A stretch of 64,000 bases of DNA from Ianthella basta. Lineage: Eukaryota > Porifera > Demospongiae > Verongiida > Ianthellidae. How positions within the stretch are numbered: position 1 is the first letter of the stretch; the number at the start of each line of letters is the position of its first letter. Under the pieces are notes generated by a model. That model had not been told where the DNA came from. It did not search any database and saw only the letters and a program-made list of their open reading frames with translations. Positions 1,570 through 63,380 of the stretch are shown in pieces. The translations under genes were made by a program, and so were the position numbers. The DNA is taken from the NCBI GenBank assembly GCA_964019415.1, contig OZ025872.1, positions 9,622,678 through 9,686,677 of the forward strand. Direction: 5' to 3'.

Positions 1570-3057
1570 TCAATCTAGTTTCAGTTCAATACTGTCCACT
1601 CTGAAGTACACAGAGTCATCCTGCAAGTACTGGCAATCATCACCATAGTAGCTGAGGTCTTTGTGGCCCAAGTTAGTACCCTCATCTACACCCTGTTCTT
1701 GTGGTTGAAGCTCCATTGTGTAGTGCTGCTCATCTTTCAGCTGGTTGAGCAAGCTCACTTTGACGGTGCCTTTGAAGGGACGCTCAAGATTCACTTGGTT
1801 ATCTCCTGTCATCAGCTGAACGAACAAAGATAGAAAAGGCATATCTTCCATTGGTGGACTTGGAGCAATGACCACAATACGCATCTTGTACCCTCCAATG
1901 TGAGAGTACACAGGATCACTGTACCACATCTCCTCATATTCCACAGTCTCCCGAAACTCCTCCAATTTGAGAACACAAGGTGGGCGGAGATAGCAAGTGG
2001 GTAAGCTGTGCAGCCATGGACGATAGGCAAGGGGGATGGTGGAGACAGCTTGGGGCATACTACAGAGAATACTTGCGTAGAGTTCCTGCATTGCAGCTGC
2101 ACCGGACTCCATGAGCACATTTAGTTGGCCATTGTCCAGAGTGGGGCTTACACCGCGTTGAATAACTCTATAGAGTTGCTGCATTGCAGCTGAACTTGTC
2201 TCCATCAGCACTGGTAAGCGGTGGTCCTTGCTCAGCATGGGGCTTACACCAAGTGTAATAATCGCATGAAGATGCCGCATTGCAACTGCACATGACTGCA
2301 TTAGCACTTGTAGGTGGCAGTCCTTGTTTGATATATGTCCCTTGAGGTCCTTCCTCTTCACAACAGAGGTACAGCCAGCCATCTTGTGGGGACACTCCAC
2401 CAATTCTTCAGAGCAGGTCTTGGCAAGGTGATCCTTCATTCCTCTCCGTGACAGAGTTCTCTTGCATCCAGCAACACAGGGGAGACGAAATGAGTCACAC
2501 ACCACAAGATGTGCTGTATTGATCTTCCTGAGAGTGTCCTTGTGAGGGCAGTGAGGACACTTGCAGTTGCGAGAAACACATTCGTGTGTTTCATGAGCAT
2601 CGAGTATTCTTCGCTCCATCTCCATCCCACAACCATTTTTGCATTTCATCATCTGGAAGTGACAGACATCACCGGTGTGCTCCTCAGCTTCCCTCAGTTC
2701 TCCCTGCCAGGTGCAACCCTTCTCAGAGTTGGGGCATTTCCCCTTGAAGTCACCAAGCCTTCTGCTGTTGAAGTGATCTGGAGTCTTGGTGAAGTACCTA
2801 CGGTCAACTGGGCAAATTCTTAGTGTCCCAATGCACTTGCCACAGAACAAGTGCCCACAACTTGTCTGTACTGGGTCAGAGACCAGCTCCAGACAGATGG
2901 GACACTTCAGCTCATCCAGAAACTGTCTATACATGTTCAAAAAAGTGTAGTTAACACCTTTGTAACTCCACTGAGGCATGGACTGCTCCGACTTTACTGC
3001 AGTCACAATCTCGCGAGGCCTGAGAATCCCTCCTGGCTCCATTTTGTTTGACGTCAT
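1570..3057 (-). CDS. TRAF-like RING E3 ligase with MATH domain (group I)
   Basis: An intronless frame of 495 residues. A leader with an aromatic motif (SYKGVNYTF, about residues 31-39) precedes a RING at 52-85: [13 protein letters not shown], then CPVD. The eighth zinc ligand is Asp, as in the TRAF6 type. Cys/His-rich TRAF zinc fingers fill about 108-245 ([27 protein letters not shown]). Three repeats of ~31 residues follow at 249-335, where classical TRAFs have a coiled coil. A MATH/TRAF-C domain spans 361-495 ([38 protein letters not shown]). Family knowledge predicts RING-dependent ubiquitin transfer and receptor or adaptor binding through MATH. The first ATG is used; a second lies at residue 6. 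All RING ligands are present, so it looks functional. Its closest relative here is the gene at 3706-5175. Confidence 0.9.
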
Positions 3058-3086
3058 CCGAATTACTCAATAGAAATGGCTGCCAC
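3041..3086 (-). promoter_or_regulatory. Putative core promoter of the 1570-3057 gene
   Basis: Just upstream of the ATG are a full CRE-type palindrome TGACGTCA (3049-3056, overlapping the start codon), a TTACTCAAT box (3063-3071) and AAATGGCTGCC (3074-3084). The same TTACGCAAT plus AAAATGG pair sits before most group I genes. Conservation between paralogues is what supports it; the bound factors are unknown. Confidence 0.45.
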
Positions 3087-3705
3087 GAGGCGCGGGCGGA
3101 CGCCAAACATATCCTACGTGCCCGTAGGCTAAAGTGCCCGTATGGCTATAAGATACTGCGCAGGAATAGCTTTCATGGCCACTCGTTCTCACCAGAAACG
3201 TGCTGAATAGGCGATAGGCATCGATTGGGTGCAGTTTTACCGCTCCAAATACGTATGTACGAGCGCGGTTGGATGGCCACCTCCCATGTTTGCGGGTCGC
3301 GCACGGCTTTTAGTCTAAGCAAGACAGTTAACTACACCACTTGCCAGTTCCATCACGGGACAAGATGACTTCTCTGCGGCAGTTATTCGATACGCTGGCC
3401 TGCCGGGCGAAAATTCTTCGGTTGCTCCGGTCTAGCTATCCCGCTGAGGTAGCTAACGGAAGAATGGTCAACACCCTGCTCAGGTCGCATCTAGCGAACG
3501 AAGTGTATGCTATCCTCCTCTTTCCTCCATTCCTTAGAACTATGTTTCTGTCGGCTAGTATGGTGTTTTGACCTGCAACTAACCGAAGCAGGAGCAGCTA
3601 AAGTTTCGAGCTCGCACGCAATTTCAATGATTACACTTACAGTTGACAAGGTTAAAAAACACATCACTGTAGCACATAACTATGGATACATACTGTGTTA
3701 ACACC
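3087..3705. other. Duplicated 5' flank and spacer
   Basis: The stretch at about 3155-3390 aligns by eye with about 5300-5500, upstream of the next gene (shared GAGCGCGGTT, GGGTGCA and AGATGACTTCT words). The two gene units therefore arose by duplication of gene plus flank. No gene is seen here. Confidence 0.6.
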
Positions 3706-5175
3706 TCAATCTAGTTGCAGTTCAATACTGTCCACTCTGAAGTACATGGAGTCATCCTGCAAGAAACGGCAACCATCACCAACAGACCCGAGATGTTCAA
3801 AGCACATGTCTGGGTCAAATCCATCATTCTCTTGTAGTTCGAGCTCCATCTCATGGTGCTGCCCATCTTTCAGCTGGTTGAGCAAGCTCACTTTGATGGT
3901 GCCTTTGAAGGGACGTTTAAGATATATATGGTTGTCTCCTGGCATCAGCTCGCCGTACACAGATAAGGAAGAAATATCTTCTATTGGTTGCTCGGCAATA
4001 ATGATCACAATACGCATCTTGTACCCTCCAAAGTGAGAGTACACAGGATCACTGTACCATAACTCATCTCGCTCCACCATCTCCCGAAAACCTACCATTT
4101 TGAGAACAGAAGGTGGGCGAGGGTAGCAAGTGGGTGAGCTGTGCAGCCACGGACGGTAGGCAAGGGGAAAGCTGGAGACAGCTTGGGGCATACCAGGCTG
4201 AATACTTGTGTAGAGTTCTTGCATTGCAGCTGTACCTGACTCCATCAACTCCCTTAGTTGGTCATCGTCCAGAGTGGGGCTTACACCACGTTGAATTACC
4301 CCATAGAGTTGCTGCATTGCAGCTGAACTTGTCTCCATCAGCACTGGTAGGTGGTGGTCCTTGCCCGTTGTGGGGTTCACTCCATGTCGAATAATCTGAC
4401 AAAGCTCCTGCAATGCAAGTGAACACGACTGCATCAACACTTTCAGGTGGTGTTCTTTGTCCGATGTGTGTCTCTTGAGATCTTTCCTCTTCACGACAGC
4501 AGCACAGCCGGCCATCTTGTGGGGACACTCCACCAATTCTTCAGAGCAGGTGTTGGCAAGGTGATCTTTCATTCCTCTACGTGTTAGACTCCGCTTGCAT
4601 CCAGCGACACAGGGGAGACGAAATGATTCGCACACCACAAGGTGCGTTGTATTGATCTTCCTGAGAGTGTCTTTGTGAGGGCAGTGAGGACACTTGCAGT
4701 TGAGACAAACACATTCGGTTGTTTCGTGAGCTTCAAGTAGTTTTTGCTCCATCTCCATCCCACAACCATTCCTACATTTAACCATCTTGAAGTGACAGAC
4801 ATCACTGGTGTGCTCCTTAGCTGCCCTCAGTTCTCCCTGCCAGAGGCAACCTTTCTCACAGTTGGGGCATTTCACTTTGAAATCACCAAGTCTTCTGTTG
4901 TTAAAGTGGTCTGGAGTCTTGGTGAAGTGCCTACGGTCAACTGGGCAGGTCCACACTCGTTTGATGCACTCTCCACAAAACAAATGCCCACAACTGGTCT
5001 GAACTGGGTCAGAGACCAGCTCCAGACAGATGGGACACTTGAGTTCCTCCAGCAGCCGCTTTTGTACGTCCACAAAAGTGTAGTTTATGCCTTTGTACCT
5101 AAACTGAGGCAGGGACTGCACCGAATGTACTGCAGCCGCAGTCCTTCGCGCCCTGAGAATCTTTCGCGCCTCCAT
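3706..5175 (-). CDS. TRAF-like RING E3 ligase with MATH domain (group I)
   Basis: An intronless frame of 489 residues from the ATG at 5175 (MEARKILRARR). ATGs at 5205 and 5238 are in frame and could also serve; I chose 5175 because it aligns with the start of the sister gene. RING at about 47-80 (CPIC, CGHLFCGEC, CPVD with Asp as last ligand), TRAF zinc fingers to about 240, three ~31-residue repeats ([25 protein letters not shown]), then a C-terminal MATH domain ([41 protein letters not shown]). No lesion is visible. The expected role is a cytosolic ubiquitin ligase of TRAF type. Highest similarity is to 1570-3057, by tandem duplication. Confidence 0.9.
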   Translation of the reverse strand: MEARKILRARRTAAAVHSVQSLPQFRYKGINYTFVDVQKRLLEELKCPICLELVSDPVQTSCGHLFCGECIKRVWTCPVDRRHFTKTPDHFNNRRLGDFKVKCPNCEKGCLWQGELRAAKEHTSDVCHFKMVKCRNGCGMEMEQKLLEAHETTECVCLNCKCPHCPHKDTLRKINTTHLVVCESFRLPCVAGCKRSLTRRGMKDHLANTCSEELVECPHKMAGCAAVVKRKDLKRHTSDKEHHLKVLMQSCSLALQELCQIIRHGVNPTTGKDHHLPVLMETSSAAMQQLYGVIQRGVSPTLDDDQLRELMESGTAAMQELYTSIQPGMPQAVSSFPLAYRPWLHSSPTCYPRPPSVLKMVGFREMVERDELWYSDPVYSHFGGYKMRIVIIIAEQPIEDISSLSVYGELMPGDNHIYLKRPFKGTIKVSLLNQLKDGQHHEMELELQENDGFDPDMCFEHLGSVGDGCRFLQDDSMYFRVDSIELQLD

Positions 5176-5194
5176 TTTAGTGACGTCTTCGGCA

Positions 5195-5216
5195 TTACGC
5201 AACATAAAATGGTTGG
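5195..5216 (-). promoter_or_regulatory. TTACGCAAT-like / AAAATGG promoter pair
   Basis: TTACGCAAC lies at 5195-5203 and AAAATGG at 5206-5212, only ~20 bp upstream of the chosen ATG. The pair recurs before other group I genes (8506, 11625, 17534, 19769, 27047). TTACGCAAT resembles C/EBP- or PAR-bZIP half sites and AAAATGGC resembles a YY1 core; both matches are by eye only. Confidence 0.45.
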
Positions 5217-5655
5217 CAGGTACGGGCCACACCGTCATAAAGGCTGTCCAACGCAACCATAAGTTACTTAGCGTATACGGGTGGTCAGCCACACCATGGT
5301 ATTGCGCAGGAGCTGGAATTGCTCCTACACCTTTTATACCGGAAAAGCACTGAATCGGCTGGGTGCATTTGCTTTGACGCTCCGCGTTCGAGCGCGGTTA
5401 GTTCCCCCTCCCACATTCGCGGGGCGCACTACTGTTAGACAGTTTACTCCACACCATTGCCAATTACTTGGCAGGAGAAGATGACTTCTAAATTGCACTC
5501 TGTGTTTGGATTCGCCTGTACGCGATAGCACATTGAAGACATTCTGTTCTATGATCTGAAGTAGCGACAAGGCTATGTTGATCTCCTTCCTCCCCTCCAC
5601 AGTTCGATGTTTCGCTCAGTTTAACTAAGCCAGTGTGTTCTTATCCATTCTTTCT

Positions 5656-6999: not shown

Positions 7000-8478
7000 T
7001 CAATCTAACTTTGGTTCAAAGCAATCCACCCTAAAGAACAAGGTGTTGTCCCTCAAGAACTGGTACGGGCAATTCGGAACACTGAGATCATGGTGGTAGA
7101 TGAACGGTGTTCGCCAGCCATCTTCCGCCATCGCCCTTCCAGTGACACGCCCACTGCTGTCGTCAGGGATATCGATATCAGGTGACCAAGTCAGTCTGGT
7201 GCAGTGCTGCCCATCATGCAGCTGGTTGAGCAGGCTCACTGTGATGGTGCCTTTGAAGGGCCACTTCAGATTGTCGTCATTGTCTCCTCTCATCAAGTAG
7301 ATGTACACAGACACATGATTGTTTAACACACTAGCATCCACACTAGCATCCACACTCAGACACATCTTGTACCCTCCAAAATGGGAGTACACAGGATCAC
7401 TGAACCAAAAGATGCCAGCCTCCTTCTTCTCCTGAAAACCCTCCATTCTAATAACCCAAGGTGGACAGGGGTAGCACGTGGGTGTGTTCTGGAGCCACGG
7501 ACGGTAGGCAAGGGGGATGCTGGAGATTACTTGCCTGGCACCAAATGGAATACTCCTATAATAGAGGTGTTGCAGTGCAGCTGCATGTGAATTCAACAGG
7601 GCTTGTAGGTGGTGGTCTTTGTCCGATGTGTGCCGCTTCAGATTCTTCCTCTTCACAACAGAGGTACAGCCGGCCATCTTGTGGGGACACTCCACCAATT
7701 CTTCAGAGCAGGTCTTTGCTAGGTGATCCTTCATTTCTTTCCGAGTTAGGGTCCGCTTGCATCCAGCAACACAGGGAAGACGAAGTGATTCACATATTGT
7801 GAGGTGTGAAGTAGTGACAGTGCTGTAAGTGCCATTGAATGGGCAATGAGGACACTTGAAGCTACGATGAAGACATTCAGTTGCCTCGTGAGTTTTAAGA
7901 TACTGTCGTTCCATCTCTCTTCCACAGCCATTTTTACATTTGACAACAGTCTGATAACGGCAGCTCTCACTGGTGTGTTCCTCAGCTTCCCTCAGTTCTC
8001 CCTGCCAGGAACAACCTTTCTCAGAGTTGGGGCACTGCACCTTGAAATCGCCAAGTCTTCTGCTGTTGAAGGGGTCTGGAGTCGAGGTGAAGGACTTACG
8101 GTCAACTGGGCAGGTATCCGTTCCTGTGATGCACTTGCCACAGAACAAGTGCCCACAACTGGTCTGTACTGGGTCAGAGACCAGCTCTAGGCAGATGGGA
8201 CACTTCAGTTCCTCCAGCAACGTGTTCTGGCAATTCAAAAATGTGTAGGTTACACTTCTGTAACTGAACTGGGGTAAGGAATGAACCTGATTCGGAGCGG
8301 CTACAGCTCTACTCTTAAGCTCACGTGCCCGGAGATATCTTCTGGCTTTTATCTTGCATAACGCCCTCATTCGGGTACGACGGTCCACAGATGTGTACTT
8401 TAGTCTTCTGTAACTGATTCGAGATAACGGACGAGCCTGTTTCGCTTTGGGTCTAGTCTTATGTGATCCAAGAGCCAT
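7000..8478 (-). CDS. TRAF-like RING E3 ligase with MATH, duplicated leader (group I)
   Basis: An intronless frame of 492 residues from ATG 8478. The N-terminus is longer than in its sisters and carries the leader twice: residues ~6-33 (KTRPKAKQARPLSRISYRR) repeat the pattern of ~56-83 (RAVAAPNQVHSLPQFSYRS), the copy next to the RING. An ATG at residue 37 would give a protein without the extra copy. RING at about 92-125 ([17 protein letters not shown]), TRAF fingers, a single ~31-residue repeat (QALLNSHAAALQHLYY) and a MATH domain with a duplicated VDAS in a loop (VDASVDASV). The frame is intact. Predicted role: TRAF-type ubiquitin ligase. Confidence 0.88.
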   Translation of the reverse strand: MALGSHKTRPKAKQARPLSRISYRRLKYTSVDRRTRMRALCKIKARRYLRARELKSRAVAAPNQVHSLPQFSYRSVTYTFLNCQNTLLEELKCPICLELVSDPVQTSCGHLFCGKCITGTDTCPVDRKSFTSTPDPFNSRRLGDFKVQCPNSEKGCSWQGELREAEEHTSESCRYQTVVKCKNGCGREMERQYLKTHEATECLHRSFKCPHCPFNGTYSTVTTSHLTICESLRLPCVAGCKRTLTRKEMKDHLAKTCSEELVECPHKMAGCTSVVKRKNLKRHTSDKDHHLQALLNSHAAALQHLYYRSIPFGARQVISSIPLAYRPWLQNTPTCYPCPPWVIRMEGFQEKKEAGIFWFSDPVYSHFGGYKMCLSVDASVDASVLNNHVSVYIYLMRGDNDDNLKWPFKGTITVSLLNQLHDGQHCTRLTWSPDIDIPDDSSGRVTGRAMAEDGWRTPFIYHHDLSVPNCPYQFLRDNTLFFRVDCFEPKLD

Positions 8479-10102: not shown

Positions 10103-11614
10103 TCAATCTAACTTTGGTTCAATGCAGTCCACTCTAAAGTACAGAGTGTTGTAACTTAAGTACTGGCAATTCTGGTTACCACGGTAGTTCAGCTCTTGGT
10201 GGTAGATGAACTGAATTAGTCCCCAGCCACTGTTGGCTCTCTCCATACCAGTGACACGTCCACTGAATTCTTCAGGGATGTGGATATCAGGAGACCAAAT
10301 CTGCCTGGTGCAGTGCTGCCCATCCTCCAGCTGGTTGAGCAGGCTCACTTTGATGGTGCCTTTGAAGGGCCACTTCAGATTGTCATCATCATCTCCTCTC
10401 ATCAGGCAGACATACACTCCCACAAAAGTGCCGTTTACATTGTTGCCTCCATAAGCATCCACACTCAGACACATCTTGTATCCTCCAAAATGGGAGTACA
10501 CAGGATCACTGAACCAACAGCTTGTCCCCTTCTTCTCCTGAAATCCCTCCAATTTAAAAACCCATGGCGGGAGAGGATAGCAAGAGGGCTTATTCTGAAG
10601 TCATGGACAGAAAGCAACAGGCATCATACGGACATCATGGAGTTGAACTGCCTCACATAGCTGTTGCTTAGCAATTGTATATACTTCCATGAGTGCTTGC
10701 ACGTCGTCTTCGTCTAATGTAGGGCTTGTACCACATTCAATAATATCACACAACTGCCGCATTGCAGCTGCACATGAGCTCATGAGGTGGCTGTCCTCGT
10801 CTGATGTTGGGCTGAAACGAAGTTGAATAATCGTACAGGAGTATTTCATTGCAGCTGTACATGAACTTACCAGCCCTTTTAGATGGTAGTCCTTGTTTGA
10901 TGTGTGTTCCTTCAGATCTTTCCTCTTTACAGCAGAGGTACAGCCGGCCATCTTGTAAGGACACTCCACCAATTCCTCAGAGCAGGTCTTGGCAAGGTGG
11001 TCCTCCATTGCTCTACGAGTTATAGTCCTCTTGCATCCAGCAACACAGTCGAGACGAACAGATTCACATACCATGGGGTGTACGGTAGTGACTGTACTGC
11101 AAGTACCCCGGTATGGGCAACGAGGACACTTGATTATTCGATGAATGCATTCAGTGGCCTCGTGTGTTTTACGATGCTCTCGTTCTATCTCTGTTCCACA
11201 GCCATTTCTACATTTCACAGTAGTCTGGTGAGGACAGATTTCACTAATGTGGTCTTCAGCTTCCCTCAGTTCTCCCACCCAGTCACAACCCTTCTCAAAG
11301 TTGGGGCACTTCACCTTGAAATTACCAAGTCTTCTGTTGTTAAAGTGGTCTGGAGTTGCAGTGAAGTTAGCACGGTCGACAGGGCAGGTTTCTGTCCTTG
11401 TGATGCACCTACCACAGAACAAGTGCCCACAACTGGTCTGAACTGGCTCAAAAACCAGCTCTAGGCAGACAGGACATTTTAGTTCCTCTAGCAACGTGTT
11501 CTGGCAGTCCACAAATGTGTAGGTCACGCTTCTGTAACTAAACCGGGGTAAAGAGTGAGCCTGTTTCGCTACAGCTCTAGTCTTACGTGGCCGCAAAACC
11601 TTTCCGGTGTCCAT
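10103..11614 (-). pseudogene. Group I TRAF-like gene with one nonsense codon
   Basis: The frame runs from ATG 11614 (MDTGKVLRPRK) to 10103 and matches the intact gene at 18232-19758. One TGA at 10601-10603 replaces the Trp codon TGG in FCPWLQN, between the repeat region and MATH. The frame is open on both sides of the stop, so this is a single substitution and looks recent. The upstream part (337 residues) keeps RING (CPVC, CGHLFCGRC, CPVD), the zinc fingers and three repeats. The downstream part (10103-10600) keeps the whole MATH domain. Alternatives are a truncated MATH-less ligase, readthrough, a sequencing error or a segregating null allele. Confidence 0.85.
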
Positions 11615-15890: not shown

Positions 15891-17507
15891 CTAAAAGCAG
15901 TCCACTCTAAAGAATAGGGTGTTGTGTTTTAAGTACTGCAATTCGTTGTTAGCACGGCAGGTGAAATCTTGGTGGGAGATCAACTGAGGGTGTCCCCAGC
16001 CACTGTTTGCTCCCTCCTCTCCTGTGACACGCCCGCTGGTGCACTCAGGGATGTCGTCATCTAGTCTTGCGCGCCAGCCCCTATTTCCCTTATTGCGCAA
16101 TCGTGGAGAAAATTCTAAGCGCGATTGTGCAATAATAGGGGCTGGTGCGTGAGACTAGTCGTCATCAGGTGACCAGGGCTGTGTCATGTAGTACTGCCCA
16201 TCCTCCAGCTGGTTGAGCAGGCTCACTTTGATGGTGCCTTTGAAAGGCCACTTTAGATTGTCATCATTGGCTCCTTTCATCAGGTTGAAGACAGACACAT
16301 GACTGCCTTCCACATCTCCATCTCCATTAGCAACCACACTGAGACACCTCTTGTACCCTCCAAAGTGAGAGTACAAAGGATCACTGTACCACCATTCACT
16401 GTTCACCTTCTTCTTAAACCCATCCATCTTGACAACCCATGGTGGGCGAGGGTAGCGGGAGGGTGTGTTTTGAAACCATGGTCGATGGGCAAGGGGGAAG
16501 CTGAAGATAGTAGTACTGAAACCACATTGAATAATCCCACAGAGCTGTGGCATTGCGGCTGCACCTGTTTCCATCATCTCATGCAGGTTATGTTCCAGTG
16601 TGACATTTGCACTATGGTGAATGATCTTGCACATCTCTTGCACTGCAGCTGCACTGGTCCCCAACACCACCCTCCGGTGGTTGTTCTTCTCCAGTGTGGG
16701 GCTATAAACATGCTTGATAATCCCACAGGCGACTGGCACTGCAGATGTACATGACCCAACCAGGGCTTGTAGGTGGTGGCCCTTGTCATATGTGTGTTCC
16801 TTCAGATCCTTCCTCTTCACAACAGAGGTACAGCCGGCCATCTTGTGGGGACACTCCACCAATTCTTCAGAGTAGGTACTGGCAAGGTGATCCTTCATTT
16901 CTCTACGACTTATGCTCCGCTTGCATCCAGCGACACAAGTGAGACGAAATGCTTCATACACCATGAGATGTCCTGTAGTGACCGTGCTGTACGTACCCCA
17001 GTGTGGGCAATGAGGACACTTGAACTTGCGATGAATACATGTAGTTGTCTCGTGAACTTTCAGATCCCTTTGTCCCATTTTTCTTCCGCAACCATTTCCG
17101 CATTTCAGAACTGTCTGAAAACTGCAAGCCTCATCAGTGTGTTCCCCAGCTGCCCTCAGGTCTCCTACCCAGTCACAAACCTCAGAGTTGGGCATTTCAC
17201 CTTGAAATCACCAAGTCTTCTGTTGTTGAAATGGTCTGGAGTTGTAGTGAAGGTATTACGGTCAACTGGGCAAATTTTTTATCCCTTTAATGCACTCCCC
17301 ACAGAACAAGTGCCCACAACTGGTCTGCACTGGGTCAGAGACCAGCTCTAGGCAGATGGTACACTTCAGCTCCTCCAACAGTTTTCTCTGGCAATTCACA
17401 AAAGTGTAGTTAATACCTCTGTAACTGAACTGAGGCGGCGACTGCTCCAACTTTACTGCAGCTCTAGTCTTGTGCGTCCGCAACGAACGATCCCTTCCAA
17501 TCTCCAT
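15891..17507 (-). pseudogene. Group I TRAF-like relic: two frameshifts plus MITE insertion
   Basis: From ATG 17507 (MEIGRDRSLR) the frame encodes leader and RING (CTIC, CGHLFCGEC). A T-rich run near 17275-17280 carries one extra base before the CPVD codons. A compensating one-base loss plus a codon deletion occurs near 17190 (NSEVCDW where sisters have NSEKGCDW). The rest, to about 16158, encodes TRAF fingers, three ~31-residue repeats and most of MATH. A 96-bp hairpin MITE (16062-16157) with a 9-bp target duplication then interrupts the MATH domain, and the final codons are lost (stop after RVDCF). Several independent lesions make it a true pseudogene. Confidence 0.9.
16062..16157. mobile_element. 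TAGTCT hairpin MITE inserted in a TRAF relic
   Basis: 96 bp; ends TAGTCTTGCGCGCCAGCCCC and the complement of TAGTCTCACGCACCAGCCCC. It is flanked by a 9-bp duplication GTCGTCATC (16053-16061 and 16158-16166). The homologous codons at ~21488-21500 form the empty site with a single copy, proving insertion. Confidence 0.93.
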
Positions 17508-38262: not shown

Positions 38263-38265
38263 CCA

Positions 38266-43752: not shown

Positions 43753-43860
43753 TAGTCTAGCCGCTAGCCCCTACTTTGTCCTCGCGCACGGGGGCGGAAG
43801 AAAAGTACTTTTCTTCCGCCCCTGCATGCAATGACAAAGTAGGGTCTAGCGGCTAGACTA
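43753..43860. mobile_element. TAGTCT hairpin MITE
   Basis: 108 bp; ends TAGTCTAGCCGCTAGCCCCT and complement, centre with GAAAAGTACTTTTC. Perfect 9-bp duplication CCCACCCCC on both sides, in a C-rich target. Confidence 0.93.
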
Positions 43861-43869
43861 CCCACCCCC

Positions 43870-51339: not shown

Positions 51340-52768
51340 ATGGCTTTCTCCAGAATCAAAGACCTGACCCGTACCTACGAAGGACAAAGCTACACCTTTG
51401 TAGACCAGATACAAGTCTTGTTGAAGGACCTAGAATGCCGCATTTGTCACAAATATCGTCAGTGAGCCACTGCAAACCAGCTGTGGACACTTATTCTGCA
51501 CAGGGTGCTACAACAAACTATGGAGTCTTCGTCAGTGCCCAGTGTGCAGGCAACAATACACCACAACTGTAGACAACTACAATGTCAGGAGAGTGAAGAC
51601 TCTTAAAGTGAGGTGCGTCAATCACCAGTATGGGTGCAAATGGGTTGGGAATTTGGGGGATGAAAAGCAACACAGAATGCGTGGTTCTTGCCAGTTTGAA
51701 ACACTCAAATGCCCACATGGATGTGGTATGACTATTCGGAGGATGACACAGTCAAGTCATGTGAACATGTGCCCAAGACGTCCACACAAATGTAGGTACT
51801 GTAATAAATTGGGCCCATGTCAGGACATTGAAGGTGACCATCGAAAAAGTTGTCCCAGATATCCTGTGAAGTGCCCAAATGGCTATGATGAACGTATACC
51901 CAGAGAAGAAACAGCTAGTTACAGACTGAAGAAAGAAATGTCTACAATGAAAGAAAAGTTGCAAGTAGAGACACAACGCACACGTGATCTTGAGAGGGAT
52001 GCCGAAGCTAAGGCAAAGTGCATACGCCAGCTGGACAGGGACATTGGAACTAAAACACACCACATCCAAGTCCTAGAGAGGGATGCTGGAGCTAGGACAC
52101 AGCGCATACACATTCTGGAGAGGGATAGTCAAGCAATGACAATACGCACACAGCAGCTACAGAGGGATACTGAAGAAAAGGCAATGCAGATACAAGACCT
52201 CGAGAGAGACACTGCAGCTAAAAGAGAACGAATACTTTACCTTGAGAGGACTAACCAATCTATGACCAATCGCACACACAATCTTGAGAGGGATGTAAGG
52301 GAAAAGACAGAGCACATAAGTGGTCTGCAGAGAGACAATGCTGCAAAAAACGAGCATATACATGACCTTTAGGTGGATTGTGAGGATAAAGAAGAGCGCA
52401 TATCCTATCTTGAGGGGGAACTCAATGCAATGACAGAGTGCACATGCGCCCTTGAGAGGAATGCCAAAGATATGACTGAACAGCTACATCTACTTCAGAA
52501 GGAATGCGAAACGAAGACGGAGCACATACGCGAAGTTGAAAGGGCTACCAAAGCAAAGGCACAGCAAATATGCCATTTTGAGGGGGTCACCAACAGCAAG
52601 ACACAGCAAATAACTCGGCTTACAGCAGAAAATTCTGACAGGCAGAGGAAACTACAATATGTAAAAAGGTTTATTGTGTTTGCACTCAGTGTAGTTGTAC
52701 TCTGTCCATTAAATCCCATTTACTTCCTTCCACTCTTACTCTTACTACTAATTGTTGTCTATGCCTAG
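51340..52768 (+). pseudogene. Group III gene with one frameshift and one nonsense codon
   Basis: ATG 51340 (MAFSRIKDLTRTYEGQSYTF). One extra A in the run at 51450-51453 (CACAAAT; sisters have CACAAT) shifts the frame inside the RING, after the first Cys pair. Removing it in analysis restores RING and TRAF-finger alignment with 53553-54932. The coiled-coil frame then runs to a TAG at 52370-52372, where sisters have GAG, and continues in frame to 52768 with the C-terminal hydrophobic anchor. The double lesion suggests a true null, though the long 14-residue-period coil is otherwise well kept. Confidence 0.88.
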
Positions 52769-53552: not shown

Positions 53553-54932
53553 ATGGCTCAATCCAAGATCAAAGCCCAGACTCACAGCTACAAGGAACAA
53601 GATTACATCTTTGTAGACCAGCCAGAAGAGAACCTAAAGGACTTGGAATGCCCAATCTGCCAAGATATTGTCAGTGAACCATTACTAACCAGTTGTGGGC
53701 ACTTGTTCTGTAGAGAGTGCTACAACAACAAAGGGAGGGATCCTCAGTGTCCTGTGTGCAGGCAAACACACACCACTGTGCCAGACAACCGCACCAACAG
53801 GCTGGTTAAGAGCCTCAGAGTGAGGTGCGTCAACCACCAGTATGGGTGCAAATGGGTGGGGGATTTGAGTGATGAAGTACAACACAGAACGACACAAGGT
53901 TCCTGTCAGTTTGAAGAAATCCCATGTCCATACAACTGTGGTAATACTATACACAGAATGACACAGGCGTGTCATTTACAAGAGTGTCCAAAGCGTCCTC
54001 ACAGATGTAGACACTGTAATAAAGTTGGCCCACATCAGTATGTTGAAGGTGACCATCGAAAAAGCTGTCTCAGGTATCCCGTGAGATGTCCAAATGGCTG
54101 TGATAAACGAATACCCAGAGAAGAGACAGCAAGTTACAGACTGAAGAAAGAATTATTTTCAATGAAAGAAAGGTTGCGATTGGAGGAGCACTGTACACGT
54201 GAGCTTGAGGAGGATGCCAAAGCTAAGGCAGAGTGTATTCGTCAGCTGGAGTGGAACATTACAACTATGACACGTCACATAAGCGACCTGGAAAGGGATA
54301 ATCAAGCAATGAAGAAACGCACACGCCAGCTTAAGAGGGACACTGAAGTAAAGACAGAGCAAATACATGAACTCCAGAGGGACACTGCAGCTAAAAGCGA
54401 ATGGATACTTGAATTTGAGAGGGCTACAGAAACTAGGGCAGATCACACAAACAGTCTTGAGAGAGAAGTCAATAGTATGACAGAGCAGATATGTGGTCTC
54501 CAGAGTGACAACGAATCTAAGAAAGAGCGTATACATGACCTAGAGCTGGATGGTGAGGATAAAGAAGAGCGAATACACCATCTTGAAGGGCAAGTCAAAG
54601 CTATGACACAGCACATATGCGACTTTGAGAGAAATGCCAAGGATATGACTGAACAGCTTCAGAAGGAAAGCGAAGCTAACACTGAGTGCATACGTGAACA
54701 TGAGAAAGCTGCTAAAGCAAAGGATCAGCAAATATGCCATCTTGAGGGGATTGCCAAAAGTAGGGCACAACGAATAACTCGGCTTACAGCAGAAAATTCT
54801 GAAAGGCAGAGGAAACTACAATATGTAAAGAAGTTGATAGTGTTTGCACTGGGTGTAGTTATACTCTTTCATCTCAATCCACTTTACTTCATTCCACTCT
54901 TAGTCTTACTACTAACTGTTGTGTATGCTTAG
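53553..54932 (+). CDS. RING-TRAF zinc finger protein with long coiled coil and membrane anchor (group III)
   Basis: An intronless frame of 459 residues from ATG 53553. Leader (YKEQDYIFVD), RING at about 32-70 (CPIC, CGHLFCREC, CPVC), TRAF fingers to about 190 (GCKWVGDLSD, CPYNCGN, CRHCNKVG, CPNGCDKRI). A coiled coil of about 215 residues follows, built of ~15 units of 14 residues (two heptads) with consensus like LERDTEAKTEHIHE. The C-terminus is hydrophobic in two parts around an NP turn (LIVFALGVVILFHLNPLYF, then PLLVLLLTVVYA). Predicted membrane-anchored, self-associating E3 ligase. Longest intact member of group III. Confidence 0.9.
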   Translation: MAQSKIKAQTHSYKEQDYIFVDQPEENLKDLECPICQDIVSEPLLTSCGHLFCRECYNNKGRDPQCPVCRQTHTTVPDNRTNRLVKSLRVRCVNHQYGCKWVGDLSDEVQHRTTQGSCQFEEIPCPYNCGNTIHRMTQACHLQECPKRPHRCRHCNKVGPHQYVEGDHRKSCLRYPVRCPNGCDKRIPREETASYRLKKELFSMKERLRLEEHCTRELEEDAKAKAECIRQLEWNITTMTRHISDLERDNQAMKKRTRQLKRDTEVKTEQIHELQRDTAAKSEWILEFERATETRADHTNSLEREVNSMTEQICGLQSDNESKKERIHDLELDGEDKEERIHHLEGQVKAMTQHICDFERNAKDMTEQLQKESEANTECIREHEKAAKAKDQQICHLEGIAKSRAQRITRLTAENSERQRKLQYVKKLIVFALGVVILFHLNPLYFIPLLVLLLTVVYA

Positions 54933-55395: not shown

Positions 55396-56418
55396 ATGGC
55401 TCTTACCAAGATCCCAGATCTGACTCATAGTTACAGAGGTCAAGACTACCTTTTTGTAGACCAGTTAGAAGAGAATCTCAAGGAACTGGAGTGTCCCATC
55501 TGTCAAAGTATTGTCAGTGAACCACTATTAACCACTTGTGGGCACTTGTTCTGTAGAGAGTGCTACAAGAAAAAGAAGTTTGCTCACTGCCCTATTTGCA
55601 GACAAGAACACACCACTGTGCCAGACAACCGCACCAATAGGATAGTTAAGAACCTCAGAGTGAGGTGCGTCAACCACCAGTATGGGTGCAAATGGGTGGG
55701 GGATTTGAGTGCTGAAGTACAACACAGAACAACACAAGGTTCCTGTCAGTTTGAAGAAATCCCATGTCCATACAACTGTGGTAATACTATACATAGAATG
55801 ACAAAGGCGTGCCATTTACAAGAGTGTCCAAGGCGTCCTCACAGATGTAGACATTGCAATAAAGAGGGCCCATATCAGTATGTTGAAGGTGACCATCGAA
55901 AAAGCTGTCTCAGGTATCCTGTGAGATGTCCAAATGGCTGTGATGCACGAATACCCAGAGAAGAGACAGCAAGTTACACACTGAAGAAGGAATTATCTTC
56001 AATGAAAGAAAGGTTGCGATTGGAGGAGTACCGTACACATGAGCTTGAGGAGGATGCCAAAGCTAAGGCAGAGTCTATATATCAGCTGGAGTGGGATGTT
56101 GAAGCAATGAACCAGCACATAGATGTCTTAGAAAAAGACACTGAAGCTAAGACCTTTCATTTACACAATGTGGAGAGGGATAATGAAGCAATGACAAAAC
56201 GCGTACATCAGCTTGAGAGGGACATTGGAGAAAAGGCAGAACAAATAAAAGTACTCCAGAGGAATAACCCAGCACTGGGTGCAATCACACTGGGTGCAAT
56301 CACACTGGGTGCAATCGCACTGGGTGCAATCGCACTGGGTGCAATCGCACTCCTTCACCTAAATCCCCTTTACTTCCTTCCACCCTTAGTCTTACTACTA
56401 ACTGTTGTGTATGCTTAG
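55396..56418 (+). CDS. Group III RING protein with in-frame coil deletion and expanded anchor
   Basis: An intronless frame of 340 residues from ATG 55396. RING at about 32-70 (CPIC, CGHLFCREC, CPIC) and TRAF fingers are complete. Compared with 60291-61595 about 113 residues of coiled coil are missing between NPA and LGAI, yet the frame is kept. Right after the junction a 15-bp unit (CTGGGTGCAATCACA-type) is repeated five times, so LGAI(T/A) occurs five times where the sister has it once, lengthening the first hydrophobic segment by 20 residues. The C-terminal anchor is otherwise normal (LLHLNPLYFLPPLVLLL). It may be functional with a short stalk. Confidence 0.88.
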   Translation: MALTKIPDLTHSYRGQDYLFVDQLEENLKELECPICQSIVSEPLLTTCGHLFCRECYKKKKFAHCPICRQEHTTVPDNRTNRIVKNLRVRCVNHQYGCKWVGDLSAEVQHRTTQGSCQFEEIPCPYNCGNTIHRMTKACHLQECPRRPHRCRHCNKEGPYQYVEGDHRKSCLRYPVRCPNGCDARIPREETASYTLKKELSSMKERLRLEEYRTHELEEDAKAKAESIYQLEWDVEAMNQHIDVLEKDTEAKTFHLHNVERDNEAMTKRVHQLERDIGEKAEQIKVLQRNNPALGAITLGAITLGAIALGAIALGAIALLHLNPLYFLPPLVLLLTVVYA

Positions 56419-57747: not shown

Positions 57748-58761
57748 ATGGCTGATCCCAAGTTTAAAGACCTGGCTCATAGCTACAAAGACAAAGACTA
57801 CATCTTTACAGGCCAGCTGGAAGTCTCACTCAGGGAGTTGGAGTGTCCTGTTTGCAGACAGATCCTCTGTGAGCCTTTACAAACAAGTTGTGGTCACCTC
57901 CTTTCTAAAGGATGTCATGGAGCGTTGCAAGGTGATGTGAGGTCACCACGGCATCTCTACTTCACAGGAGGTGACCCAGCAACACAGTGGGGAAGCGACA
58001 GGACAAGACGTGGTGTTCAGTGCCCGGTTTGCAGACAAGAACACACCACTGGGCCAGACAGGTTCAATGAGAGGAGAGTGAGGAATCTTCAAGTGAGGTG
58101 CATGAACTACACAGAGGGGTGCAGCTGGGTTGGGAATTTGGGGGATGAGGAGCATCGTAGGAAGAAACAAGATGGTTGTCAATATGAAGAAATCAAATGT
58201 CCACAGAGATGTGGTAGTATTATGCGCAGGGTAGGACTGTCATGCCATATGGATGACTGTCCAAGGCGTTCCTACGATTGTGAATACTGCAGTGAAGAGG
58301 GCCCATATCAGTACATTGTGGGAGATCATCTAGAAACATGTTGCAAATATCCCGTGCAATGTCCTAATGGCTGCAAAGAGAAACTCCCCAGAGAAGAAGT
58401 TTTACATGAAATCAAGCTGAATAGAGATCTGTATATAATGCAAGGGAGGTTGGAGGCTACAGAGGAGCATGTAAGCGAACTGAAGGCTGAAGTCGAAACT
58501 AAGGAACAGCTCATTTATGCTCTGGAAGTAGAAGCACAGTCTTTATGGGATCTTCAAAGCAACAACAAAACTAAGACAGCACGCAATCACGAACTTGAGG
58601 AGGATGCCAGAGCTACAGCAACGCAAATACGTGAGCTGGTAGCGGCAAAGACTAGCATGAATAATGAAAGTTCTCACTTGCGGGAGCAACTAGAATCAAT
58701 TACAACAAGAGACAGATATCTGGTCTACATAATTACACTAATTCCAATAACGGGGTGTTAG
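57748..58761 (+). CDS. Group III protein with degenerate, interrupted RING
   Basis: An intronless frame of 337 residues from ATG 57748 (MADPKFKDLAHSYKDKDYIF); an upstream extension has only a GTG. The RING region starts normally (CPVCRQILCEPLQTSCGH) but the next Cys is Ser (LLSKGC where sisters have LFCxxC), and ~35 residues rich in Gly/Arg separate it from the last pair (CPVC). Zinc binding is probably impaired, so E3 activity is doubtful. TRAF fingers are good (GCSWVGNLGD, CEYCSEEG, CPNGCKE). The coiled coil is different from other group III members (LKAEVETKEQLIYALEVEA) and the C-terminus is only a short hydrophobic stretch (YLVYIITLIPITGC). It may be a RING-dead regulator or a gene in decay. 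Confidence 0.8.
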   Translation: MADPKFKDLAHSYKDKDYIFTGQLEVSLRELECPVCRQILCEPLQTSCGHLLSKGCHGALQGDVRSPRHLYFTGGDPATQWGSDRTRRGVQCPVCRQEHTTGPDRFNERRVRNLQVRCMNYTEGCSWVGNLGDEEHRRKKQDGCQYEEIKCPQRCGSIMRRVGLSCHMDDCPRRSYDCEYCSEEGPYQYIVGDHLETCCKYPVQCPNGCKEKLPREEVLHEIKLNRDLYIMQGRLEATEEHVSELKAEVETKEQLIYALEVEAQSLWDLQSNNKTKTARNHELEEDARATATQIRELVAAKTSMNNESSHLREQLESITTRDRYLVYIITLIPITGC

Positions 58762-60290: not shown

Positions 60291-61595
60291 ATGGCTCTTG
60301 CCAAGATCCCAGATCTGACTCATAGTTACAGAGGCCAAGACTACATCTTTGTAGACCAGTTAGAAGAGAATCTCAAGGAACTGGAGTGTCCCATCTGTCA
60401 AAGTATTGTCAGTGAACCACTATTAACCACTTGTGGGCACTTGTTTTGTAAAGAGTGCTACCACACAGGGAGGAATACTCAGTGCCCACTTTGCAGGCAA
60501 GAACACGCCACTGTGCCAGACAAGCGTACCGATAGGATAGTTAAAAGCCTTCAAGTGAGGTGTGTCAACCACCAGTATGGGTGCAAATGGGTGGGGGATT
60601 TGAGTGGTGAAGAACGACACAGAACAGCACAAGGTTCCTGTCAGTTTGTTGAAATCCCATGTCCATACAAATGTGGTAACACTATACGCAAGGTGACACA
60701 GACACATCATTTACAACAAGAGTGTCCAAAGCGTCCTCACAGATGTAGACACTGTAATAAAGTTGGCCCACATCAGTACGTTGAAGGTGACCATCGAAAA
60801 AGCTGTCTCAGGTATCCTGTGAGATGTCCAAATGGCTGTGATGCACTAATACCCAGAGAAGAGACAGCAAGTTACAGACTGAAGAAAGAAGTATCTTCAA
60901 TGAAAGAAAGGTTGCGATTGGAAGAGCACCGTACACGTGAGCTTGAGGAGGATGCCAAAGCTAAGGCAGAGTCTATACGTCAGCTGGAGTGGGATGCCGA
61001 AGCAATGAACCAGCACATAGATGCCTTAGAAAGGGACACTGAAGCTAAGACCTTTCATTTACACAATGTGGAGAGGGATAAGGAAGCAATGACAAAACGC
61101 GTACATCAGCTTGAGAGGGACATTAGAGCAAAGGCAGAACAAATAGAAGTACTCCAGAGGGATAACCCAGCCGGGAAAGAGCATATACTTGACCTTAAGT
61201 TGGATATTGAAGCTAAAAACGAGCGCATACACATTTTGGAGGATGAAAGGAGAGCTATGGCAAAGCGTATATGTGATCTTGAGAGGAAGGCCAACGATAA
61301 GACAGAACAGTTACGCCAGCTTCAGAAGGAAAATAAAGCAAAGACAGAGAACATACGTGAAATCGAGAGGACTGCTAAAGCTAAAGCAAAACACATACAT
61401 TATTTTGAGAGGGTTACCAAAAGTAAAACACAACAAATAACTCAGCTTACAGCAGAAAATTCTGAAAGGCAGAGGAAACTACAATATGTAAAGAAGTTGA
61501 TAGTGTTTGCACTGGGTGCAATCGCACTCCTTCACCTAAATCCTCTTTACTTCCTTCCACTCTTAGTCTTACTACTAACTGTTGTGTATGCTTAG
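60291..61595 (+). CDS. RING-TRAF zinc finger protein with long coiled coil and membrane anchor (group III)
   Basis: An intronless frame of 434 residues from ATG 60291 (MALAKIPDLTHSYRGQDYIF). RING at about 32-68 (CPIC, CGHLFCKEC, CPLC), TRAF fingers to ~190, a coiled coil of ~13 units of 14 residues (LERDTEAKTFHLHNVERDKE), and a C-terminal hydrophobic hairpin (LIVFALGAIALLHLNPLYF, then LLVLLLTVVYA). It is the full-length sister of 55396-56418 and shows what that copy lost. Predicted membrane-anchored E3 ligase. Confidence 0.9.
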   Translation: MALAKIPDLTHSYRGQDYIFVDQLEENLKELECPICQSIVSEPLLTTCGHLFCKECYHTGRNTQCPLCRQEHATVPDKRTDRIVKSLQVRCVNHQYGCKWVGDLSGEERHRTAQGSCQFVEIPCPYKCGNTIRKVTQTHHLQQECPKRPHRCRHCNKVGPHQYVEGDHRKSCLRYPVRCPNGCDALIPREETASYRLKKEVSSMKERLRLEEHRTRELEEDAKAKAESIRQLEWDAEAMNQHIDALERDTEAKTFHLHNVERDKEAMTKRVHQLERDIRAKAEQIEVLQRDNPAGKEHILDLKLDIEAKNERIHILEDERRAMAKRICDLERKANDKTEQLRQLQKENKAKTENIREIERTAKAKAKHIHYFERVTKSKTQQITQLTAENSERQRKLQYVKKLIVFALGAIALLHLNPLYFLPLLVLLLTVVYA

Positions 61596-61737: not shown

Positions 61738-62515
61738 TTGAGATTTGCTTCAGATGGTGCAAACGTTGAGAATTGAGTTTGACTCGTTAAGTGTGGGTGG
61801 ATGACATGTCAGGGTGTCACCTAGTCAAGCTGCTAGCCCCTATTTTGTCATCTCGTGCGCTTTTCTTCCACCCTGTGTGAGGTGAAAAAGTAGGAGCTAT
61901 CAGCTAGACTAGGTGCCACCAGAAGTGTAACAGTAATGGTGAGGATGCATGTACTATAAGGTGGGTTAGGGTAAGGGGGAAAGAGGCGTGGTGTGTGGTG
62001 AGGCATGCGGTTATTGAGTGTGCAGTGCAAGCTGCTTAGTGTAGGGTGAGGGTTACATTTGGTGGGGGGGAGGGGCATGTGAAATGTCTGATATCTTGGA
62101 ATTGAGGAGGCAGCTGCCTCTTGCCTCCTTGCTCTACTGTGTCTTCAAAATAGCTTAGTACTGAATGTGTGCTCTATTGGATTTGTATTGTGTGGACACG
62201 AAGGCATGATGTACTTCATACACAGGAACCCAGTGTTCACAAAGCTGTCTCTATGTTAGCCCATACAGGTATGGGTGCATGGCAGACAAGCACAAAGGCG
62301 ACGTCAGATGAAGGCTCTCTCCACACAGTGGGTATTGGATTTCAACTGTCTTCGCAATTAATATCATTCCTTGAGGAAAACCTGTAATTAGCCGATTGCT
62401 TTCGTTCGAAGATTTATTCATTCGAAACATCACATTTAGCTGTTGTTATACATATTTCCTTAATTTCGGTCGCACTTCGAAGCATTCCTGGGCAGAAATT
62501 TCTGTTGGTGCAGCA
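61738..62515 (+). repeat. ~740-bp dispersed repeat, copy 3
   Basis: Nearly identical to 56568-57335 as part of the ~4.9-kb tandem duplication of 55.3-59.4 kb to 60.1-64.0 kb. Confidence 0.85.
61822..61911. mobile_element. TAGTCT hairpin MITE
   Basis: Passive copy of 56645-56734 carried by segmental duplication; same flanks GGTGTCACC and GGTGCCACC. Confidence 0.85.
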
Positions 62516-62637
62516 CAATAGTCACTTGCGCAAAACAGTCTGCCATTTTAATGCTTGCAATTCCGTAATACTCCGTACTCTGTATTTCCGTGTTTGAAGA
62601 CACCCCTCCCAGTTTCCTGCCCTTTGCGCAATATGAA

Positions 62638-63380
62638 ATGGCTGGAAGTGGGTCTGGGCTACGTCAAACTAGGCCAGACAGGTTCAATGAGAGGAGAGTG
62701 AGGAGTCTTCAAGTGAGGTGCATGAACTACGCAGAGGGGTGCAGTTGGGTTGGGAATTTGGGGGATGAGGAGCATCATAGGAAGAAACAAGATGGTTGCC
62801 AATATGAAGAAATCAAATGTCCACATGGATGTGGTAGTATTATGCGCAGGGTAGGACTGTCATGCCATATGGATGACTGTCCAAGGCGTTCCTACGATTG
62901 TGAATACTGCGGTGAAGAGGGCCCATATCAGTACATTGTGGGAGATCATCTTGAGACATGTTGCAAATATCCCGTGCAATGTCCTAATGGCTGCAAAGAG
63001 AAACTCCCCAGAGAAGAAGTTTTACATGAAATCAAGCTGAAAAGAGATCTGTATATAATGCAAGGGAGGTTGGAGGCTGCAGAGGAGCGTGTGAGCGAAC
63101 TGAAGGCTGAAGTCGAAACTAAGGAACAGCTCATTTATGCTCTGGAAGTGGATACACAGTCTTTACGGGATCTTCAAAGCAACAACAAAACTAAGACAGC
63201 ACGCAATCACGAACTTGAGTAGGATGCCAAAGCTACGGCAACGCAAATACGTGAGCTGGTAGCGGCAAAGACTAGCCTGAATAATGAAAGTTCTCACTTG
63301 CAGGAGAAACTAGAATCAATTACAACAAGAGACAGATATCTGGTCTACATAATCACACTAATTCCAATAACGGGGTGTTA
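62638..63380 (+). pseudogene. Group III relic lacking RING, with nonsense codon
   Basis: Second copy of 57748-58761. The leader and RING are deleted: sequence jumps from the shared upstream flank (to ~62618) through ~45 bp of foreign sequence into RPDRFNERRVRSLQ at ~62672. An ATG at 62638 (MAGSGSGLRQT) could start a RING-less protein of ~194 residues with complete TRAF fingers. A TAG at 63220-63222 replaces GAG in ELEED; the frame stays open after it to 63380 (…ITTRDRYLVYIITLIPITGC). The ~45-bp joint (GCGCAATATGAAATGGCTGG) resembles the group I promoter pair, here on the plus strand. Confidence 0.85.

Follow-up and report, generated by a model that had tools for sequence, protein, structure and literature searches.

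A bipolar array of single-exon TRAF-like RING ligase genes in the sponge Ianthella basta, with putatively re-paired heads and MATH domains

The stretch analysed here, 64,000 nucleotides of Ianthella basta contig OZ025872.1 (C5 below; C5:9622678-9686677, hereafter the window), lies at the pivot of a bipolar array whose single-exon genes are predicted to encode TRAF-like RING E3 ubiquitin ligases, and in which N-terminal heads (RING and TRAF fingers) appear to have been re-paired with C-terminal MATH domains that would act as diversified peptide readers; we hold this reading with moderate confidence. Three kinds of C-terminus occur, MATH (group I), a short coiled coil (group II) and a long coiled coil with a hydrophobic end (group III), and it is within group I that head and MATH prove to be decoupled, as judged from their divergence, trees and flanks.

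A bipolar array of single-exon genes

A search of the genome (209 Mb, 96 contigs), with about 150 candidates scored per search and matches to RING, zf-TRAF and MATH merged into loci, identified at least 117 array loci, relics included, between C5:9.100 and 10.329 Mb (1.23 Mb); this is a lower bound, corrected from a first count of 118 that had split one gene in two. Seventeen of these loci start in the window, 102 have a RING match and 15 a match to MATH or zf-TRAF only, and many lie in open frames of 400-500 residues. The extent of ~62 kb given in a preliminary description of this DNA was therefore that of the window edge only. Along the array there is one plus-strand locus (9.100 Mb), then 34 on the minus strand up to 9.664 Mb, then 74 on the plus strand and one on the minus strand up to 10.306 Mb, and finally seven of mixed orientation; thus 34/35 loci left of the switch are on the minus strand and 74/75 from the switch to 10.306 Mb on the plus strand, giving 10 strand runs against a shuffled mean of 54.7 and a shuffled minimum of 37 (a test done on the earlier count of 118). 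The head-to-head switch of strand reported for the window at 41.7-44.7 kb was borne out, with the 5' end of gene g10 at 41653 (minus) and the start of g11 at 44732 (plus), and the strand order of the loci makes it the pivot of the entire array. Groups II and III are located near this pivot, across which the array is partly mirrored: a cluster B head (9.45 Mb, minus strand) matches its own seven neighbours at 73-88% and then five plus-strand genes of cluster H (10.21 Mb) at 64-70%, the remaining near-complete heads not exceeding 52% (a sixth, broken head of H reaches 72% over 112 residues), and clusters C/D pair less closely with E/F. The outermost clusters, A and I, were also compared for such a mirror pairing, with a negative result, and a search of 33-50 kb of the window found no inverted repeat of at least 60 bases.

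The N-terminal plan of RING plus TRAF fingers and the three C-terminal classes, both proposed earlier, were confirmed by the open reading frames (ORFs) and by a Pfam scan of 12 of the 15 that belong to the family in the window (g4, g8 and g13 lay outside the scan). RING scored above cut-off in 11/12 proteins (in g14 below cut-off only) and the TRAF-type zinc finger PF02176 in 12/12, the last TRAF finger being absent from group III; TRAF-C/MATH (PF21355/PF22486) was present in 6/6 scanned group I proteins and had no match in the scanned group II and III members. Among PDB structures, g7, our reference gene for residue numbering and identities, aligns with the TRAF6 RING-finger and TRAF4/5/3/2 TRAF-C structures, and g15 with TRAF6 RING-fingers. 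A hydrophobic C-terminus was found in 7/8 group III proteins (five of these eight in the window), with KD17 values of 2.0-3.4 against a maximum of 1.82 in 40 other family proteins, and the end of the group III protein at C5:9.6998 (Mb, as in all such labels) resembles a classical tail anchor. Pfam scans of window and other family proteins gave no match to B-box, B30.2 or BTB up to an E-value of 0.01, and only one of 26 scanned proteins (g3, 34.4 bits) reached the 32-bit cut-off for the Sina zinc finger PF21361, which was otherwise weaker or absent.

As stated in the preliminary description, head and tail lie in one open frame: our single-frame set consists of 45 fetched ORFs of at least 290 residues with a head score and a RING motif, 29 of which hold head and MATH together. 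Outside this set stand five ORFs without the matching RING pattern (two window relics, one gene on contig C18 and two on C4), ORFs on C20 and C3, and ORFs below 290 residues. The single-exon state is probably derived, as in five other TRAF loci of the genome read by eye (C6, C2, C19 and two on C13) the MATH frame lacks RING and fingers, and in 3/5 of these finger-like pieces lie upstream in a different frame. It is possible that an intronless founder arose by ancient retroposition. The young copies arose by tandem duplication at the DNA level: g15 and its copy at C5:9.6876 are 98.7% identical over 1 kb upstream and 97.8% over 1 kb downstream. This 4.6-kb tandem copy, together with the relics, agrees with the birth and death proposed earlier. 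The same description had named processed retrocopies as a finding that would overturn it; processed retroposition is rejected for the young copies examined, which have common non-coding DNA up- or downstream; most older pairs have lost any recognisable common flank. We give very little credence to the broader proposal that the array consists of neutral, largely functionless retrocopies in decay, which could draw on the single-exon structure and on the relics (five) and fragments (two) of the window; besides the flanking DNA of the young copies and the many long open frames, the median ratio of nonsynonymous to synonymous rates (dN/dS) is 0.31 in heads and 0.35 in MATH (31 close pairs), which argues for purifying selection.

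Heads and MATH domains have different histories

For comparisons within group I we used 29 MATH genes from seven clusters on C5: A (9.10-9.12 Mb, two rows), B (9.45, seven), C (9.556, four), D (9.613-9.648, with the window, nine), F (9.97-10.03, three), H (10.21, one) and I (10.30, three). The gene at C5:9.4558, of the class below 290 residues and with MATH outside the frame of its head, is absent from the divergence, tree, Mantel, bootstrap and nearest-neighbour sets. Between the main head lineages the proportion of synonymous differences (pS) comes close to saturation in the head (0.74-0.78) and is lower in MATH (0.43-0.60), as given here as medians, with mean differences (head minus MATH) and intervals from a bootstrap over genes and codons where calculated:

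B-D: head 0.775, MATH 0.474 (63 pairs); mean difference 0.304 (0.194 to 0.418), gap in 63/63 pairs
B-C: head 0.769, MATH 0.483 (28 pairs); mean difference 0.304 (0.193 to 0.414), 28/28
B-F: head 0.778, MATH 0.431 (21 pairs); mean difference 0.347 (0.211 to 0.493), 21/21
D-F: head 0.743, MATH 0.491 (27 pairs); mean difference 0.259 (0.122 to 0.398), 27/27
C-F: head 0.752, MATH 0.516 (12 pairs); mean difference 0.234 (0.085 to 0.381), 12/12
D-H: head 0.751, MATH 0.537 (9 pairs)
F-H: head 0.764, MATH 0.541 (3 pairs)
C-H: head 0.758, MATH 0.598 (4 pairs)

There is no such gap in C-D (0.508 / 0.521) or B-H (0.523 / 0.594), nor within D (head 0.42, MATH 0.50). Control pairs with A are high in both halves (head 0.829-0.894, MATH 0.795-0.822), as are those with I (head / MATH: D-I 0.774 / 0.757, C-I 0.772 / 0.781, F-I 0.791 / 0.736, H-I 0.817 / 0.801). 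Mean differences in the controls were 0.034 (C-D), 0.021 (A-D) and 0.015 (D-I), and the bootstrap intervals include zero for C-D, A-D, D-I, B-H and D-D; among the H pairs and B-I, the bootstrap covered B-H alone. Fourfold sites gave the same picture (head vs MATH, 0.603 vs 0.320 in B-D and 0.604 vs 0.666 in A-D), GC content at third codon positions is similar in the two halves, and in sliding windows pS drops at g7 residues 256-285, the start of MATH. Cluster I holds the reverse case, C5:10.3134: its 5' end is shared with the genes next to it, with a median pS of 0.06 in the first windows, and its MATH has a pS of 0.75-0.78.

Mantel tests within D point the same way. RING correlates with fingers (r 0.56, p 0.017) and the two MATH halves with one another (0.58, p 0.0006); RING is uncorrelated with the MATH halves (-0.04, 0.02) and fingers are not significantly correlated with them (0.27, 0.31). 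With C and D taken together, fingers and MATH are correlated (0.34 and 0.57; p 0.029 and 0.006). Across the array we compared 66 near-complete group I heads of C5 with MATH, picked by hand from 165 matches to the g7 head, with g4 and C5:9.4558 counted; g7 itself, partial heads (including cluster G, 10.12-10.16 Mb), relics such as 9639444, non-array members and groups II and III were left out. Mean identities to g7 (head / MATH) were 46.5 / 69.9 in B (8 genes), 71.5 / 69.0 in C (4), 76.2 / 64.0 in D (9), 54.2 / 70.0 in E/F (29), 44.0 / 67.4 in H (5), 44.6 / 43.4 in I (8) and 41.7 / 35.7 in A (3), and within B-H the two identities do not correlate (Spearman -0.07, 55 genes, p 0.59). The idea of a fixed head joined to a varying tail had to be given up: head identity to g7 ranges from 39 to 86% in these 66 heads, and the head lineages are older and more divergent than their MATH domains.

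Separate phylogenies of head and MATH, which the preliminary description had proposed as a check of concordance, were discordant within the MATH group, and tail types were not seen to move (C5:10.3014, with a deletion in its head, was excluded from both trees). The head tree holds B+H (100/100), F (100/99) and C+D (97/98), and the MATH tree, apart from a B clade, is star-like for those clusters and groups the g1 and g2 domains with that of C5:9.972 from F (96/90). In approximately unbiased (AU) tests the head data reject a clade of C5:9.972, g1 and g2 (3e-65), B+F (0.0004) and H+C+D (6e-21), and do not reject B without H (0.297). By head, the nearest neighbour lies in the gene's own head lineage in 24/24 cases.

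Recent chimeras are visible in the non-coding flanks of two genes. The 850 bases upstream of C5:9.4517 match those of 9.4699 (72-97% by window) and, once past the last 100 bases, are unrelated to those of 9.4657 (34-43%). On the downstream side the partner changes: over 1 kb the identity is 68-97% with 9.4657 and 27-59% with 9.4699. In the second case, g13 and g15 agree at 91-99% from base 951 of the g13 coding sequence (CDS) to 1 kb downstream, and the 5' flanks are 37-62% identical beyond 100 bases in a global alignment; BLAST finds an older 5' homology there (73-80% over ~320 bases), owing to which g13/g15 were scored as sharing both flanks in the pair test. In the middle of the gene, the head of g13 matches g12 at 93-94%, although g12 has a different tail and different flanks. 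In the pair test, 23/30 group I rows gave 253 pairs, 240 of them without a recognisable common flank; of the 13 with one, 12 share one flank only (g4/g5 among these is a truncation artefact) and the exception is 10.2992/10.3014. A common flank was found in 6/28 group III pairs (three with both flanks) and in 1/10 group II pairs.

The exchange of modules proposed earlier thus stands within group I, on the pS gap, trees, Mantel tests, array-wide correlation and flank chimeras, and falls between the three tail types. In a tree of 48 heads (30 group I, 6 group II, 8 group III and 4 others, with the C18 gene and the two C4 genes put back), 5 changes account for the tail labels, and with 6 labels there can be no fewer; groups I (86/88) and III (99/95) each occupy one side of a branch, and group II forms a core of four with two loose rows. 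The coil-and-anchor tail of group III has 12 matches in the genome, all within C5:9.668-9.701 Mb. With the number of changes at its minimum and this tail confined to the area of the pivot, exchange of tail types between head groups was rejected.

Variation at the MATH groove

Equivalents of Arg393, Tyr395, Asp399, Gly400, Ser453 and Ser455 of TRAF2 are common to four other TRAF genes of the genome (C6, C2, C19, C13), and that of Ser454 is kept in 3/4 of them. The same groove positions vary among the 29 array MATH domains, so that the conserved groove of the TRAF family is not seen in the array. At the 12 positions that we take to be the TRAF2 peptide contacts, entropy in 24 genes of clusters B-H was 1.95 compared with 0.98 at the 134 others (p 0.0012), and at the four strand positions it was 2.85 (p 0.0009). 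Of the 146 positions compared, the 30 most variable include seven of the 12; the loop positions 453-469 are hard to align. In place of Ala466 and Ser467 the array mostly has Gly and Trp. Four of the contacts (Arg393, Tyr395, Ser454, Ser455) are named as such in the accessible part of PMC12457700, and these alone give an entropy p of 0.0059. The proportion of nonsynonymous differences (pN) at the contacts over 52 close pairs was matched by 0/1000 random sets of 12 columns. By these alignments, groove-equivalent MATH positions are on average more variable than the rest of the domain, and diversifying selection at the groove is no more than possible. Restriction to closer pairs raises pN/pS at the groove, to 1.09 for 15 of them and to 2.14 for the three closest.

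Proposed explanation and alternatives

The evidence indicates that, within the large MATH subgroup, recombination inside the uninterrupted CDS has re-paired 5' halves (promoter, RING, TRAF fingers) with 3' halves (MATH, 3' flank), so that near-saturated head lineages carry MATH of a more recent common stock. As there are no introns, homology between neighbours would stay long, and the conserved coding core, being its longest part, would be where unequal crossover or conversion starts. The head is expected to recruit E2 and oligomerise, and MATH may read a short peptide of a receptor, adaptor or foreign protein, so that reshuffling would yield new ligase-reader pairs; group II would keep only head and coil, and group III would hang a similar head on the membrane via its C-terminal anchor. 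E3 activity is predicted from the domains, and the most likely use would be innate immune or stress signalling; according to the accessible part of PMC8242945, sponge TRAF genes respond to microbial patterns. A more ambitious version, germline combinatorial recognition, in which the single-exon structure joins promoter-RING-finger heads to the MATH of other genes across the bipolar array on a population time scale and the groove is diversified, is a tentative suggestion that we think rather doubtful.

A number of observations weigh against this explanation. A small gap is also seen in the control B-I (pS 0.866 in the head, 0.758 in MATH), and within B no pair of regions correlates significantly, even the two head regions. 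All seven genes of B remain together in a single MATH clade (92/93), and by MATH the nearest neighbour is in the gene's own head lineage in 19/24 cases (9.5 by chance), so that exchange is not free mixing. On MATH data the AU test rejects a C+D clade only modestly (p 0.0185) and does not reject F (0.073) or B+H (0.327). For the old exchange among B, D and F, decay of the 3' flanks has left no direct view of the mechanism. At the groove, five of the 12 contact positions are outside the 30 most variable and Gly468 is invariant, and the overall pN/pS of 0.67 (95% interval 0.43 to 1.19) leaves room for relaxed constraint. Finally, 41 upstream regions carry no clear immune promoter signature: kB sites number 3 (0.8 expected), the looser kB half-site 15 in 7 genes (7.4 expected), AP-1 sites 8 (6.7 expected) and cAMP response elements (CRE) 6 counts in 3 genes (0.4 expected; as a palindrome, each site is counted twice), and interferon-stimulated response elements (ISRE) and heat-shock elements (HSE) are absent from these regions.

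Some of these points would suit plain tandem duplication with one gene tree and a MATH that is merely slower than the head, namely the single MATH clade of B (which groups with H in the head tree) and the failure of the AU test on MATH data to reject F or B+H. A slower MATH is hard to reconcile with a gap that is present at synonymous and fourfold sites when A-D and D-I are equally saturated in head and MATH, with similar head and MATH pS within D, with near-zero correlations in the D Mantel tests and array-wide, and with the flank chimeras; plain duplication is already contradicted by these results, and we regard it as highly improbable. Concerted evolution, in which repeated short gene conversion homogenises MATH without functional re-pairing or selection for diversity, deserves more attention; it is suggested by patchy identity (fingers pS of 0.20 within D at residues 181-210, and the shared 5' end within I) and by a groove pN/pS not above 1. 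Some exchanges, however, span the whole 3' half plus ~1 kb of flank (C5:9.4517, g13), and conversion should homogenise the groove too, yet several groove sites are the most variable of the domain; we see concerted evolution as possible though on balance unlikely. Less likely still, the genes would serve signalling in development or cell death, and dosage, not the recognition of variable targets, would have set their number. TRAFs are generally known to act in many pathways, and the unclear promoter signature fits such a role, but ~100 copies, a variable groove, relics and young copies would better fit a recognition family.

Genes, relics and other features of the window

The preliminary description counted ten intact genes, four relics and several fragments; relics and fragments are indeed present, and the numbers are now 13 apparently intact single-exon genes (six with MATH, three with the short coiled coil, four with the long coiled coil and hydrophobic end), the doubtful g14, five relics and two fragments:

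1570..3057, minus: g1, group I, RING, TRAF zinc fingers and MATH, intact (ORF, Pfam; divergent MATH, 51% to g7)
3706..5238, minus: g2, group I, RING-TRAF-MATH, intact (ORF, Pfam; MATH clade with g1 and C5:9.972 as above)
7000..8478, minus: g3, group I, RING-TRAF-MATH, intact (ORF, Pfam)
10106..11614, minus: g4, relic, open head at 10601-11614, MATH behind a stop (one TGA); head sister of g5 (100/100)
15894..17507, minus: group I relic, several lesions (head with two TGA and one TAA)
18232..19758, minus: g5, group I, RING-TRAF-MATH, intact (ORF, Pfam)
21325..22155, minus: group I relic, 5' part missing
22989..24281, minus: g6, group I, RING-TRAF-MATH, intact (ORF, Pfam)
25736..27031, minus: g7, group I, RING-TRAF-MATH, intact, reference gene (ORF, Pfam; PDB matches to TRAF4/5/6/3/2)
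33917..34801, minus: g8, group II, RING-TRAF fingers and short coiled coil, intact (ORF; 75% to g10; outside the Pfam scan)
36742..37812, minus: g9, group II, intact (ORF, Pfam)
38070..38255, plus: group III 5' fragment with RING, directly next to a group II fragment in inverted orientation
38259..38396, minus: group II 5' fragment, inverted relative to the preceding one
40682..41653, minus: g10, group II, intact (ORF, Pfam)
41654..44731, no strand: pivot, head-to-head strand switch of the whole 1.23-Mb array (locus strands)
44732..45643, plus: g11, group III, RING, TRAF fingers, coiled coil and hydrophobic C-terminus, intact (ORF, Pfam)
51340..52765, plus: group III relic with a broken frame near residue 37 and a TAG in its tail
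53553..54932, plus: g12, group III, intact (ORF, Pfam)
55396..56418, plus: g13, group III, intact (flank and CDS comparison; outside the Pfam scan)
57748..58761, plus: g14, group III-like, open frame, doubtful (RING insertion and lost Cys; no hydrophobic end)
60291..61595, plus: g15, group III, intact (4.6-kb tandem copy just beyond the window, C5:9687580-9688881)
62674..63336, plus: group III relic resembling g14

Near the pivot, the two RING fragments at 38070-38396, a few bases apart on opposite strands, look like the scar of an inversion. In g13 the hydrophobic end is lengthened by a 15-bp unit repeated 5.3 times (56272-56351), and the relic at 51340-52765 has a 42-bp (14-residue) tandem repeat in its coiled coil (51988-52126), from which the length of the group III coil could change by repeat slippage. 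Three long ORFs at 29027-32846 (minus strand), two with CA-repeat stretches, perhaps belong to an unrelated spliced gene; a Pfam scan of all three gave no match, and one of them had no credible PDB match. A 393-residue ORF at 12518-13699 (plus strand), also without a Pfam match, presumably resembles the C-terminal part of a retrotransposon protein. An Rfam scan of the window gave no match.

Beyond the window, the group I gene at C5:10206779 lies within a 1371-residue open frame, which may have arisen by fusion of neighbouring genes. Other zf-TRAF clusters, with many members in single open frames, are found at C18:0.22-0.95, C4:1.22-1.31, C3:12.87-12.93, C17:3.49-3.51 and C7:3.31-3.34 Mb, and a locus at C3:12743359-12746538 has a RING-TRAF head in a 2045-residue open frame behind an SH3-like domain (by eye; the stretch is partly N). 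An A20 zinc finger suspected by eye in the C4 genes was discarded, as Pfam found none in two C4 proteins, both of which end in a Cys-rich motif unmatched by any Pfam model; four PF01754 matches lie on C21, C12 and C17. A separate cluster of ~20 MATH genes occupies C13:5.57-6.19 Mb; the one gene of C13 that was aligned keeps the TRAF groove residues and has a finger-like piece in a frame other than that of MATH. On the 21.2-kb contig C96, COX1 reads through with TGA as Trp and has six AGA codons, consistent with mitochondrial code 4, which sponges and cnidarians use; these codons fall at arginines that we take to be conserved. A silicatein search of the genome gave at best 49% identity among longer matches, and none is claimed.

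Comparison with known systems

To our knowledge, non-bilaterian animals have large receptor-like gene families and few known ways to make recognition diversity. The array would offer a testable route to it, old enzyme heads and younger readers re-paired in single exons with variation raised at the expected groove, and whole-gene trees mislead for such families because head and tail histories differ. Metazoan TRAF2/3/4/5/6 have the same order of RING, TRAF-type zinc fingers and TRAF-C/MATH as group I; the array genes differ in being single-exon, in numbering ~100 copies and in that several peptide-contact residues are not conserved, and groups II and III in having no MATH. Group III is like TRIM13 and TRIM59, which we take to be cytosolic RING proteins with a coiled coil and a C-terminal membrane anchor, except that it has TRAF fingers instead of a B-box and that its anchor is often two short hydrophobic stretches. 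PMC4772301 reports an enrichment of TRAF domain-like domains in two sponges, abbreviated there SC and AQ; that paper, in its accessible part, gives domain counts and describes no array, single-exon structure or head/tail exchange. In the literature searched by title and abstract opening, with subscription journals outside the scope, we found among the papers listed no description of a TRAF array with head/tail exchange.

By analogy, the closest precedents would be the finTRIMs and the MATH-BTB families. As described in the accessible part of PMC2657112, the finTRIMs of teleosts are lineage-specific clustered RING ligases, intronless in 47/55 cases in one species, with reported recombination break points; they share with the array C-termini of variable length, intronless copies and a variable ligand-binding domain, and differ in having B-box and B30.2 where the array has TRAF fingers and MATH, and RING/B-box regions that are nearly identical where the array heads are older than their MATH. 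MATH-BTB proteins of nematodes and grasses, as far as the accessible parts of PMC4334554 and PMC6883508 describe them, likewise use MATH as the substrate reader of a ubiquitin ligase, with fast birth and death and a diversified substrate-binding part; their BTB recruits a CUL3 ligase in trans, whereas the array has RING in the same protein, and positive selection is reported for them, whereas the interval of the array groove pN/pS spans 1. If our reading is true, the array would be an invertebrate counterpart of the NLR and finTRIM repertoires in which the enzyme half is itself a shuffled variable.

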